From Sistotremastrum niveocremeum HHB9708 (lineage: Eukaryota; Basidiomycota; Agaricomycetes; Sistotremastrales; Sistotremastraceae), in contig KV419405.1 of the NCBI GenBank assembly GCA_001630475.1, positions 232,513-296,512 of the forward strand: DNA of 64,000 bases. The letters run 5' to 3'. The notes under the pieces are model-generated. The model was not told where the DNA came from and ran no database searches. It saw nothing but the letters and a program-made list of their open reading frames with translations. Positions 41,855 to 64,000 of this stretch are shown here, piece by piece. Every line of letters begins with the position of its first letter. Position 1 is the first letter of the stretch. Position numbers and translations under genes: made by a program.

Positions 41855-42166
41855 CCTGAGCCTCGCGGCTGCATTGGACCGCTACGACCCACAGACGCTG
41901 TCTTTGGATATCTGTGTCATGGGCAGTCTTGACTGATACGAAAATTAGAATTACAAAGGCTCTTTCAGCCTTCGCCCACCCCGAGGGTTGAACTCGCAGA
42001 CTCGAGGCGAGGTCTGGTTCACAAACGAATTCCCTCGAAACAAAGTCTCGGCAGTGTCCGTTCAATCGGGGAAGACCTACCTCATATGGCTTGAGTACAC
42101 TGCAACTAGTCATTGTCTGTCGTTTACCTCTTCTTTCAAGGCAGCCCGCCTAGCTCAATCGGATAG
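41855..42166. repeat. tRNA-Lys upstream flank (partner of 40495-40790)
   Basis: See 40495-40790. This copy includes the intact tRNA start, so it is the likely source of the pair. Confidence 0.55.
41973..42001 (-). pseudogene. Inverted tRNA-Lys 3'-half relic
   Basis: Read on minus, the sequence gives a T arm GCGAG-TTCAACC-CTCGG followed by GGTGGGC and one base. The intact tRNA has GCGAG-TTCGACC-CTCGC followed by GGTGGGC. No matching 5' half was found beside it. It lies about 145 bp upstream of the intact gene in opposite orientation. Confidence 0.5.
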
Positions 42167-42242
42167 AGCGTCAGACTCTTAGGAGTTATCCGAATTCCGA
42201 TTCGGCATCTGAAGGCTGCGAGTTCGACCCTCGCGGTGGGCT
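42144..42242 (+). tRNA. tRNA-Lys(CTT) with a 25-nt intron
   Basis: The acceptor stem GCCCGCC (42144-42150) pairs with GGTGGGC (42235-42241; one G-U), discriminator T. The D stem is GCTC/GAGC. The anticodon stem is TCAGA (42171-42175) with TCTGA (42208-42212). The anticodon loop CT-CTT-A-A has anticodon CTT at 42178-42180. An intron of 25 nt at 42182-42206 follows the base 3' of the anticodon, the standard position. The T arm is GCGAG-TTCGACC-CTCGC. The A box (TAGCTCAATCGG) and B box (GTTCGACCC) are both good. Confidence 0.93.
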
Positions 42243-59137: not shown

Positions 59138-61822
59138 TCACGCTGCACCCTCGTCCAACTCCTTTCGAGACTCCCTTTCCAGAACGTACGGGGTAGGAAA
59201 CTGCGTCGGGACAATGGGGAAACGCTGAAATTGGGTTAGATATGTCCGACAGAAGAAACGAGCAAGCGCCGTTCGCATCGACTGAACGACAGGGATTGTG
59301 TTCGCTTCTAATGGCATCACCAGTCCTACCTTCAAATTCTGTGGGGCATCTGGCCAAGTGGCAAAAACTTTGCGAGCGGCCTCAATTGCAGGCACAGAGA
59401 AATCCCAAATGAATGAGCCGATCCCCCGATCCTCTGATGGCGCGCTCTTGAAACAGAGATCGTGCTCAATCTCATAGTGATCCCAAACGCTCGCAAGCTG
59501 TTTGCGGTACGATTCTCGGGCATCGTCTGCGTGCTGCGCACCGTCCGACATCTTCGCTTGCAAGGAAAGGCATTCGAGCCGGAAAGTAAGCTCATCGAGC
59601 TCCCACATGATTAGTCGCTGTGTGACGGCTAACATTGCAGGTTCAGAACGATCATAGGGTCTGTCGAACCAATAGTATGGGAGTATCGGCAGATCCGCCG
59701 GAATCATTGGGGCGCCCTCGGGGAGTAGCTCATCAAAGATAGCTAGATTTTTGCGACGGCGGTTGAACTTGCCGCGTTCAGGGATGTGAGAGAGGAAGTG
59801 TCGCCAATCTTCTCGATCCAGTATGGCTTCGCGATCCGGCCCACTTTGGGCTAGATGCCTGAACCACGGGTCACGAATTGCAAGCCAATTGATCAAAGCC
59901 CTCTCTCGCTTCGCCGGATTATCCTCGCTAAAGAAGGTGCTGATTGGCATCCAAAATCGGTGGGCTTTGCGAGCCGTTTCCATGTGTTGGATTTCGACTA
60001 GGGCCGTGCCCCATTCGGGGAGGGCGCCTGGTCGCTCAAAACGCGATGGGAGGGGTACTTGAGCTTCAATCGGTCGCACTCGGACGACATGGGCTGGGTT
60101 TGGCCCATCTGCGCATCCTCGCAATTAGTAAATGTGTTTGAGCGGTGAACAATGAAACATTGGCTCACACGGTTGATGGCGCATGGTCGTGCGGCTTGAT
60201 GTCTGTCGACGTTCTCCCATCCGAGAGACGTGCAGTTCTCGCTCAATTGCGCCCAGCTCGGACCGCGAACTTGTGGGAAGTTTTTGGGCTTGGAGTAGGA
60301 CTGCGTTGGGCATGAACTGTGCATCGTTGTGTCTCTTGAGGACTATGGATCTGCTATCGTCACGTGCAAAGGAGCCGACACTCTCCCAAGGTGCGCTGTG
60401 GGCTGGGGAATTCGCAAGGTGCGGTGCGCAGAGGGGTGGGAGAGGCGGATAGATGTGCGCACTGACGGAGGGAACACTGGAAGGCACTGCATCGGTTGAT
60501 GTGATGAGCCACACCGGAATCCCAGCGGAGCACAGGGATTCAGCAATATCTTCGTCATCGGTGAAGGCCCCGACAAACATATGGGCCGTGCGAGAAAAAT
60601 GGGTGTCGGTGTGGGTGGCCGGGTCTAAGGATGCACACGAGTATAGCAAAAAAATTGGTACCCATGGATATACCTACCCAGGTACCTGTCTTTTGGAGGT
60701 TTCACAGGTACAGGTACACCATCTGCCAAAAATTTCACAGGTACAGGTATTGGAAATCCCAAAATTCCATTTACTCAGGTACCTCATGGAGGTACCTGTC
60801 TAGAGGGCAGGTCTCCTCTGAGACTTGGACCCACCTCTATATCCAGGAATACATGTTGAAAACTCACTTTGATACCACTCATTCCATGAGTATTGAAGTC
60901 TCACTTGAGTTTCTGGTACCCATTGAGCATCTATTTGGACTTGAGTTGTGGTACTTGGGTCCAATCTGGATACCTAAAAGCATGTAGGTACTTGAGTATG
61001 GGTGTTCAAATGGGTATTTTTACCACACATTGGTACTCAGGTACAGGTACTTGACTCCAATATGGATACCCATTTTACTCAATTCTACTGAGTATCCATG
61101 GACTCACGGGTGACCTGGGTAAACTGCCAAGGTACCTGAGTCCTTCAAAATCATGTTGCCAAAAAATTTCACAGGTCCGAGTACAGGGCCCTGAGGGCTA
61201 GGGTACCTGCCTGTAGGGTACCCATACTCACGAGTATATACTCGTGTGCAACCTTAGCCGGGTCAAGTGTACGATTGACATACTGCTGTATTCCTGCCAA
61301 CTCCAGCCAGTATCGTTGGTACTCACCCCAAAGACGGCAAATTTCGTGCCAGGGCATCTTTTGATTGGCAAAGTGCAAGCGAGCGCGTAAGTGGTTGATG
61401 AGCTGGAAAGATTGGCGGAGGATGTCTGGTGAGATGAGTGGGGCGACGGAATGGATATATTGGTCAACATCATCGGCGAGGCCCTTGATAGAGGTGCCCA
61501 GGGTGGCGCGTATCGAAGGGCTGAGCTTGCAAAGGTCGTTCCGCCCTCCGTTGACGAAGGGATCAAGATCTTCTGGCGAGGGAGTTCTCCACATGAGTTG
61601 ATACCCGGCGTATTCGAGGTGTTGTCGACTAGGAATATAGGGGAGGTATGGGTACTCGCTCAGATGCATTTGCGGGCGCGATGTGTAGTCAGTGCTGCCG
61701 AATCGTCCATCAGCGCGGATTTGATGGTGTTGAGTCATCGGAGGGCTGGGTGGGATGAAATCGGTATTCGGGGTGACCACCGAGACAGTCGAGCTCTCGC
61801 GAAGAGCGAATTGGAAGCGCAT
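59138..61822 (-). CDS. Member of a multicopy Agaricomycete family of unknown function, interrupted by a TIR element
   Basis: Start ATG at 61822 (MRFQFALRESSTVSVVTPNT). The N-terminal part reads YLPYIPSRQHLEYAGYQLMW, DPFVNGGRNDLCKLSPSIRA and WHEICRLWGEYQRYWLELAG, up to YVNRTLDPA. The 633-bp element 60625-61257 then interrupts the exon. On its other side the same exon resumes DPATHTDTHFSRTAHMFVGA, then AGIPVWLITSTDAV. A further exon gives RFWMPISTFFSEDNPAKRER, DREDWRHFLSHIPERGKFNR, LPILPYYWFDRPYDR and a long C-terminus ending KELDEGAA at 59138. I recognise the PVWLI, RALINW, WRHFLS and YYWF signatures as a repeated lineage-specific family but know no function. The intron near 60125-60180 was not resolved in frame. 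Without splicing of the element the protein is cut short. Confidence 0.6.
60625..61257. mobile_element. Non-autonomous 633-bp TIR element (MITE-like) with 6-bp target-site duplication
   Basis: The ends form terminal inverted repeats of 21 bp with one mismatch: left 60625-60645, right 61237-61257, sharing CTAAGG and TGCACACGAGTATA. The element is flanked on both sides by the direct repeat CCGGGT (60619-60624 and 61258-61263). The interior is rich in GGTACC palindromes and CAGGTACAGGTACC-like strings and encodes no transposase. A palindrome CACGAGTATATACTCGTG lies just inside the right end. The host exon reads continuously if the element and one CCGGGT are removed, which proves insertion. The superfamily is not assigned. 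Confidence 0.85.
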
Positions 61823-62788
61823 CTCGCGGGTTGATTACTATGTCACCGCAATGGGTTGACGCGGTTTGCCTGTTCGTACGAGTGGGCAGGATGGGCGGCG
61901 CATGCACCACCACGAGACCCTATGGTGGGTGTCGTGGAGATGGGTGGGGATCCTGTTGTGGATCGCGAATTGGCGTCGGCGGATTCTGCTAGACATGGGA
62001 GGAGATTAATTGCGGGGAAATGGATTTCGGAAATGCGCCCATACGCGTGGTATGTGTGTCGTTCGACTAGAAGATTCTGGCGTTTGGTTTGGTTAGTTGA
62101 AGAGGGAAGGCTACCAGCTCTACGCACTGTGATCACACTGGATCCAGCGTCTGCAGGCTGAGTGCTCGGAGTTCGGAAATGGGCGTGAGGTTTTAGACGC
62201 TGGTAACGCCTGTCCAGTTGTGACGGGAGCAAATTGAGCTCCGACTGAACTCTAATTCTGCTCCCGCCCTCCATCGTCTTCGTTGGTTCCGCCTCTCTCA
62301 TTGTGATCGGGGCGATCGTAAGTGTCTACGGCGTCTCGGATTGAAAGATTATGCTTCCTGAGATGCCTTTAGACTTTTATCGCGCTCATCAAGGGTTGGT
62401 GCGATAATAGGTACGCTCTTGGGTCAGTCTGGGGTCGACCATACGTTAGTTGACTGCTGCATTTTGGCACAGTTTGTCGGATTTGGCGTCTTATGCGTCG
62501 GCTTCAGAGCAAACTATCCTTGCCGCGTACGATTGTGCCGATATCCTGTGCCTGTGGGGATTTTTTTTTTTTGGGTGCGTTGTGGTCTTGCGTCCTTTAC
62601 GGTCTCCTAACTTGTGGTGCGCCAAATTTCAGGTTTCGTTCATATGAGTGTCTATCTTTGCGTGGGAGACGACGGAGTATTGGTTCGCCTCTCTCTATAG
62701 CGTACCCCTGGTGGGGATCGTATCGCGTATGTTTCGTGTTGACGGTTTCGCGTCCTTATTCTCACTGATTTGTTTCGTCCTTAGTCTA

Positions 62789-62858
62789 GACGTGTGCCTC
62801 AAGTCGTCTGCCTCAAGACGTGTGCCTGAAGTTGTGTGCCTCAAGACGTGTGCTGCGA
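62789..62858 (+). repeat. 14-bp tandem repeat, five units
   Basis: Units starting at 62789, 62803, 62817, 62831 and 62845 follow GACGTGTGCCTCAA with one to four changes each; the last is degenerate. Confidence 0.8.
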
Positions 62859-63097: not shown

Positions 63098-63916
63098 AAC
63101 TGGCCCATGAGCCGGCGTCGGTGGACTGCAGAACAATACCCGTGCCCATTCTTGGGTCTGACTGGGTATGTGATCGCCGTGTTGGATATCATCGCTCAGC
63201 TGTTGAGACTTTTGGATAGCCGCCTAGCATCATCATGCATCACTGCCGTCAGCTGCGTCATCGAGTTTCCGCCATTGGGACCTCGAAGACGTGGTTGCAT
63301 TGTGCTTCTCCATGCTCATGTTGACGTTCGCTCAGAACTTCGGCATGTGTGTGTGAAACAGATCCGTGTCGAGTACTGTCTCCGAAACCTGCTGCGCGAT
63401 TCCGTGGGAAGTAGTGGGTGCTCCTAGGAGCTCATTTGGGTGGGATCGATGGTCCCACTACCCCCATCTGGACGCTTCGGTGTTTAGGGGGAACGTTCGT
63501 GAAACCAGGGGGAGGCCGTGGCCTTTGGCTAGACCTTGGGATGCTGTTCGACCTCATGCGCGAGGGAGGATGGCATTGCCGCGTTGAATCTGGCTTGCCT
63601 TCGGGGCGCATGACAGTGCTTGCACGATCTCGGATCTCGGACTGGGTCACCTCTCTCTTGGTTATGGACGCCTAGAACGTATGCGGTGAGTGGTCATCAC
63701 AATCGGTGCTATGTACATATTCTGCTGATCTCCACAGGTTGGGTTGATGGTCCGAAAGATAGGCGGAGAGCGCTCGTTGTTCATGGCCTCCCGAAATGCA
63801 GGTACGAGCTCAGCTGCTCGCCGAGGTTGCATATGTAAATACTGTTGCTCCAGATATCGACGGGCTGACCATGCCCGCAAAGGCTGAGCTATCGGTTATG
63901 CATTTTAAGGCCTCCA

Positions 63917-64000
63917 ACGAATATATACTTGCCTTACCTGGGTACCTGCATGCAGGTACCTGCCTGTTTTTTTCAGCCAAAATCCCATACTTGTACTTGG
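63917..64000. repeat. Second, truncated GGTACC-rich repeat running off the window
   Basis: The sequence from about 63917 (TATATACTTGCC...GGGTACCTGCATGCAGGTACC) resembles the minus-strand left part of the element at 60625-61257. It shares ATATACT, GGCAGGTACC-type strings and GCCAAAA. It continues beyond the window end. Confidence 0.45.

Follow-up and report, generated by a model that had tools for sequence, protein, structure and literature searches.

Organization of the locus

The window, a stretch of 64,000 nucleotides from contig KV419405.1 of Sistotremastrum niveocremeum HHB9708, contains a minus-strand exon that is split by a 631-bp insertion with terminal inverted repeats (TIRs) and a flanking target site duplication. 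The insertion is rich in GGTACC palindromes, and the end of a related element lies at the edge of the window. These features are as follows:

60626..61256, plus strand: MITE without a transposase, very probably hAT, 631 bp, delimited by copy comparison across the assembly
60626..60645, plus strand: left TIR, TAAGGATGCACACGAGTATA, from inverted-end alignment
61237..61256, minus strand: right TIR, TAAGGTTGCACACGAGTATA, 1 mismatch
60618..60625, plus strand: left copy of the target site duplication GCCGGGTC, 8 bp, from copy comparison
61257..61264, plus strand: right copy of the target site duplication GCCGGGTC, 8 bp, from copy comparison
61265..61822, minus strand: host gene, 5' part of the exon, from the joined frame and family comparison
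60125..60617, minus strand: host gene, 3' part of the reading frame, from the joined frame and family comparison
60657, 60681, 60778, 60791, 60915, 61131, 61202 and 61217 (span 60657..61222), no strand: eight GGTACC palindromes, assessed by a shuffle test
63906..64000, plus strand: terminal part of a 282-bp MITE of the GGTACC type, from a sister family, TIR TAAGGCCTCCAACGAATATATA, which gives way to N letters just past the window edge

Removal of the element and one duplication in silico restores a single long minus-strand frame that starts from the ATG at 61822; at the filled site, the host frame ends at a stop codon 28 residues into the element. The joined 247-aa stretch has 19 matches in the assembly, two of which are the window's own halves. 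Among the 17 others, 14 cross the insertion point, none with an internal stop, and three comprise the N-terminal part only; a relative on contig C73 shares 118 of 240 residues in an alignment that runs across the insertion point. Since 14 of 17 relatives read across this position, the exon is real and the window copy is interrupted, as the first-pass annotation had proposed when it described a clean insertion into a coding exon with a continuous flanking frame. Judged from these alignments, the host gene is a member of a multi-copy family whose window copy is broken by the element, and its function is presumably lost. Neither half of the gene matches Pfam.

The element itself had been described as devoid of coding capacity. 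This holds in substance: its longest ATG frame (60631-60987) could specify 118 aa, has no match in a Pfam search, and is not stable in length, the longest inner frame ranging from 43 to 118 aa among 18 copies and reaching 118 aa in two of them.

Copies in the assembly and the target site duplication

Searched at the DNA level, the assembly (34.7 Mb in 111 contigs) contains at least 44 matches to the window element, fragments included; this is a lower bound, with 40 of 55 candidates scored. Thirty loci were taken for study, 18 of them as full-length (eight of 631 bp and ten of a 650-651-bp sister group), while the remaining 12 are incomplete copies, copies with insertions or gaps, or copies that lack one end; partial matches such as L010 were left out of the examination of duplications. 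Identity to the window copy falls from 99% (L002) to 78% (L021). Two groups, L014-L016 and L017-L020, consist of copies that are mutually 99-100% identical, and near-identical copies at separate sites imply recent transposition: by this measure, some copy groups moved recently. The element is thus short and transposase-free, with several near-identical dispersed copies, as expected of a MITE, and the earlier suggestion of a dispersed non-autonomous family is upheld. The exact TIR pattern occurs 89 times in the assembly and its reversed control not once; with up to three mismatches, there are 737 occurrences (about 100 of these places were listed) against 372 for the reversed control.

Comparison of the flanks of the 18 full-length copies establishes where the element ends. 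Perfect 8-bp duplications flank 17 of them, the exception being L019, which is full-length, lies close to a contig end and has no duplication; when the left flank of one copy is paired with the right flank of another, 0 of 306 combinations match. The base adjoining TAAGG varies from copy to copy and, in the same proportion of full-length copies (17/18), agrees with the opposite flank. The TIR is therefore 20 bp long with one mismatch and begins with TAAGG, not 21 bp beginning with CTAAGG as annotated earlier, and the true duplication is the 8-bp GCCGGGTC instead of the 6-bp CCGGGT. The insertion and its inverted ends stand as first described; each boundary was wrong by one base. The origin of the shift is simple: the first G and the last C of GCCGGGTC are complementary and mimic one extra base of the inverted repeat, leaving six bases to be seen as the duplication. 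This displacement masked the superfamily in the earlier annotation, so that a one-base shift can conceal an 8-bp duplication and make an element of a known superfamily seem unclassifiable.

Taken at face value, CTAAGG ends and 6-bp duplications would define a new superfamily. The 6-bp duplication is apparent in the window copy alone, and a rearranged element at L057:2196-3002 likewise has only six common flank bases, offset by two. A duplication of 6 bp is ruled out by the copy-to-copy comparison, in which the base by TAAGG varies and matches the far flank; 17 of the 18 full-length copies have a duplication of 8 bp, as do 14 of another 19 elements from this family and its sisters, some of them longer copies set aside earlier. 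A new superfamily is, accordingly, extremely improbable.

Among 17 insertion sites, seven fall in frames of at least 150 codons, compared with 42% of points placed at random in the surrounding flanks; when N is made to close frames, the count is again 7/17 and the random value is 1390/3361 (41%). The elements thus show no preference for open frames, a result that also bears on whether the insert could act as an introner-like element, spliced out by the host so that the gene still works. A good donor, GTGAGT, lies on the gene strand 25 nt inside the element, and the frame is restored by 2 of 16 pairings of GTRNG donors with nearby acceptors, or 6 of 28 with any GT. By simple reasoning, about one third of pairs would be in frame by chance, so there is no excess, nor is there the enrichment in open frames (7/17 vs 41-42%) that would speak for such a role; splicing of the insert is unlikely. 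Target composition was compared with the nTnnnnAn preference of Hermes (part of PMC10368747): of 34 strand-symmetrised sites, which derive from 17 sites only, 44% have T at position 2.

Longer elements with hAT transposase genes

A search with profile PF05699, the hAT dimerisation domain, finds 23 places in the assembly, every one above the cut-off, and none in its 14 control genomes. Three longer transposons, complete elements that end in TAAGG TIRs and are each flanked by a perfect 8-bp duplication, carry hAT-type transposase sequences; their ends are related, but not identical, to those of the window element.

The element at C68:14930-19382 is 4453 bp long and has the duplication ACAGTCAT. 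Its gene model, with GT-AG splice sites picked by eye, comprises 12 exons and a 971-aa open frame. PF05699 matches residues 787-869 of the protein with an E-value of 2.3e-13, and alignment to the Hermes transposase has an overall E-value of 1.3e-11 and consists of a C-terminal stretch (i-Evalue 1.1e-5) and a second one (0.007). A Pfam search of this protein gave no BED domain; a BED-like finger is possible around residue 122, judged by eye.

The element at C83:29314-35280 is 5967 bp long, has the duplication GTATGCCC, matches PF05699 and carries a putative gene for a protein related to that of C68, with 40-77% identity per stretch. Its TIR core TAAGGTTTAACACGAAT is similar to the window-family TAAGGATGCACACGAGT; GGTACC is present at both ends, with six of seven sites within the outer 200 bp; and one end is 95% identical over 57 bases to a 294-bp GGTACC MITE. 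Through these similarities, C83 stands nearest to the window element among the three. The third element, C22:357206-361759 (4554 bp, duplication CTCGGAAC), is absent from the PF05699 list, and its assignment to hAT depends solely on a more distant resemblance to the C68 protein.

TAAGG ends and 8-bp duplications fit hAT, and these features, together with the hAT transposase genes in related longer elements, supply the superfamily that the first-pass annotation could not name. The window element is very probably a miniature non-autonomous hAT (hobo/Ac/Tam3) transposon moved by cut and paste. Duplications of about 8 bp are also made by Merlin, P, KDZ and Mutator-like elements, and a transposase of such another superfamily might move the family if its hAT-like ends arose by convergence; in its favour, none of the hAT elements found in the assembly carries the exact TIR. 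Convergence would have to account for the TAAGG, the similar TIR core and the clustered GGTACC ends that the C83 hAT and the MITEs have in common, as well as for the 95% match over 57 bases between a C83 end and the 294-bp MITE, which is itself similar at its ends to members of the 651-bp group. We consider a different superfamily very unlikely.

The search for an autonomous relative, proposed in the first-pass annotation, thus recovered C68, C83 and C22 with related TAAGG ends and none with identical termini. No transposase-bearing element with the exact window-family TIR, TAAGGATGCACACGAGTAT, was found in the assembly, which has gaps and in which about 100 of 737 variant TIR places were listed. 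Neighbouring facing pairs of exact TIRs are all less than 2 kb apart, the longer pairs inspected contain nested insertions or gaps, and none of the transposase matches from the C68-protein search lies within 10 kb of any exact TIR. Some PF05699 places are closer, among them C39:43375-43545, about 1.8 kb from a complete copy at C39:45330; the gene is outside this copy, which has its own duplication. The loci of solo TIRs on C36 (L070) and C44 (L067) likewise lack any match to the C68 transposase. The partner may have been lost or be missing from the assembly; alternatively, a transposase of the C83 type may work in trans.

Two other loci were observed along the way. A 2452-bp element at L074:2215-4666 (G000:C25:142214-144665), with TAAGGCATCCAACG ends, the duplication ACGTCATG and C68-like GAGTACTC ends, has no match to the C68 transposase and is possibly a deletion derivative. 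L051 (G000:C23:259000-268900) holds two hAT-like transposase genes in tandem and in the same orientation; within the stretch searched, no TAAGG ends with 8-bp duplications surround them.

Palindromes in the element ends

The GGTACC richness of the window element, pointed out in the first-pass annotation, is confirmed by 1000 dinucleotide shuffles, which contain 0.43 GGTACC on average and four at most, compared with eight in the element. Seven of the eight lie within 200 bp of one end or the other, and the palindromes are putative subterminal transposase-binding repeats. In a broader test, the commonest 6-bp end palindrome of each of 15 elements was compared with the best of 64 palindromes in 300 shuffles; the elements belong to related and sister families and are not independent samples. 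The top palindrome exceeds all 300 shuffles in 12 elements and does not in L064 (reached by 100 of 300 shuffles), L008b (10) and L032 (10).

The palindrome differs between lineages. GGTACC is found in C83 and in the MITEs of the window and sister families, AGTACT within GAGTACTC in C68 and C25, and GGATCC in C22 and L037; TCCGGA is the fourth end palindrome seen. That hAT lineages of one genome have a common TAAGG tip and differing perfect palindromes in the outer 200 bp was the least expected result of the analysis. A tentative and somewhat doubtful idea is that palindrome and transposase DNA-binding domain change together as a recognition code, whereby sister transposons would cease moving each other's MITEs. 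A set of hAT elements with matching tips and different palindromes offers a route to asking how transposases distinguish between their own MITEs and the MITEs of closely related elements. A literature search returned no paper joining GGTACC with hAT, MITE and 'terminal inverted'.

Known systems and a proposed mechanism

The 20-bp TIRs of the window element are within the range of hAT elements, which have 8-bp TSDs and TIRs of 10-25 bp (as given in part of PMC3942097). The nearest parallel comes from a mushroom: Marasmius oreades MarorhAT-4, -11 and -12 are 597-631 bp long, lack the transposase section and have TIRs like those of the 3396-bp transposase-bearing MarorhAT-10, and new insertions and excisions of M. 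oreades hAT families were observed (in the sections of PMC9674265 on these families). The window element is likewise a fungal hAT without a transposase, in the same size range and with recent insertions, and is of the same sort as these short families. By contrast, movement was observed for MarorhAT, whereas the window element is known from its sequence and no transposase element with its exact TIR was found. BuT2 MITEs of Drosophila willistoni, also hAT-derived and of comparable size (532-927 bp; 24 copies, 18 with TIRs and 14 with identical TSDs, according to part of PMC3942097), differ in host and TIR, and have a known full-length transposase-bearing element that closely resembles the ends of the MITEs. 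Hermes, a housefly hAT, shares 8-bp duplications and short subterminal repeats adjoining the TIR; these repeats are bound by its BED domains, and two of them make a quasi-palindrome (PMC10368747, in the part on DNA binding). The Hermes repeats are centred on AAGT, unlike the perfect GGTACC palindromes, the putative sites here, and Pfam reports no BED in C68.

The window element was probably mobilised in trans by the hAT transposase of a longer relative. This relative would supply the transposase, which would recognise the TAAGG TIRs and, we infer, the adjoining GGTACC palindromes. The 631-bp element would be excised and then joined across an 8-bp staggered cut, the repair of which would create the 8-bp duplication. 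The target in this instance would have been the exon of the minus-strand gene, whose frame now meets a stop codon inside the element.

Sister families, nested and rearranged copies

A 290-bp sister family matches the first 86 bases of the window element at 86%, and the 294-bp GGTACC MITE resembles, at its ends, some longer copies belonging to the 651-bp sister group. The second related sequence of the first-pass annotation does exist and belongs to a related family, and it starts at 63906, not at 63917: all 95 bases of 63906-64000 are identical to the 282-bp element of L063 (positions 1681-1962, contig C46).

The five of the 19 further elements without a perfect duplication are two in L054, the 304- and 312-bp elements of L064 and L065, and L057:2196-3002. 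L054:599-1438 (G000:C4:829598-830437) contains two copies of the 290-bp MITE with 260 bp between them, and the four 8-bp flanks, GTTCATAT / CCTCAGAA ... ATATGAAC / TTCTGAGG, are as expected if the 260-bp spacer was inverted; recombination of inverted MITE copies can explain this pattern. L057:2196-3002 (G000:C12:11195-12001) is a MITE copy exceeding the family length, with flanks GCGCCTTG / GCCTTGAC that have six common bases at an offset of two and may represent an 8-bp duplication that has been damaged or else one of 6 bp.

L059, L060 and L061:1146-2268 were considered as autonomous elements and rejected: the first two hold nested insertions, the excess length of the third is an N run, and none of the loci has a C68-transposase match. 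The element nested in the MITE copy L059:703-2570 has the 8-bp repeat TACCTCAT and ends TAGTGATGG; that within the copy L060:247-1704 is flanked by TA and is Tc1/mariner-like in appearance.

Elsewhere in the window, a 14-bp tandem repeat, AGACGTGTGCCTCA, is present in 4.7 copies at 62788-62853, close to the element, and a tRNA gene at 42144-42242 is the sole Rfam match over the gathering score.
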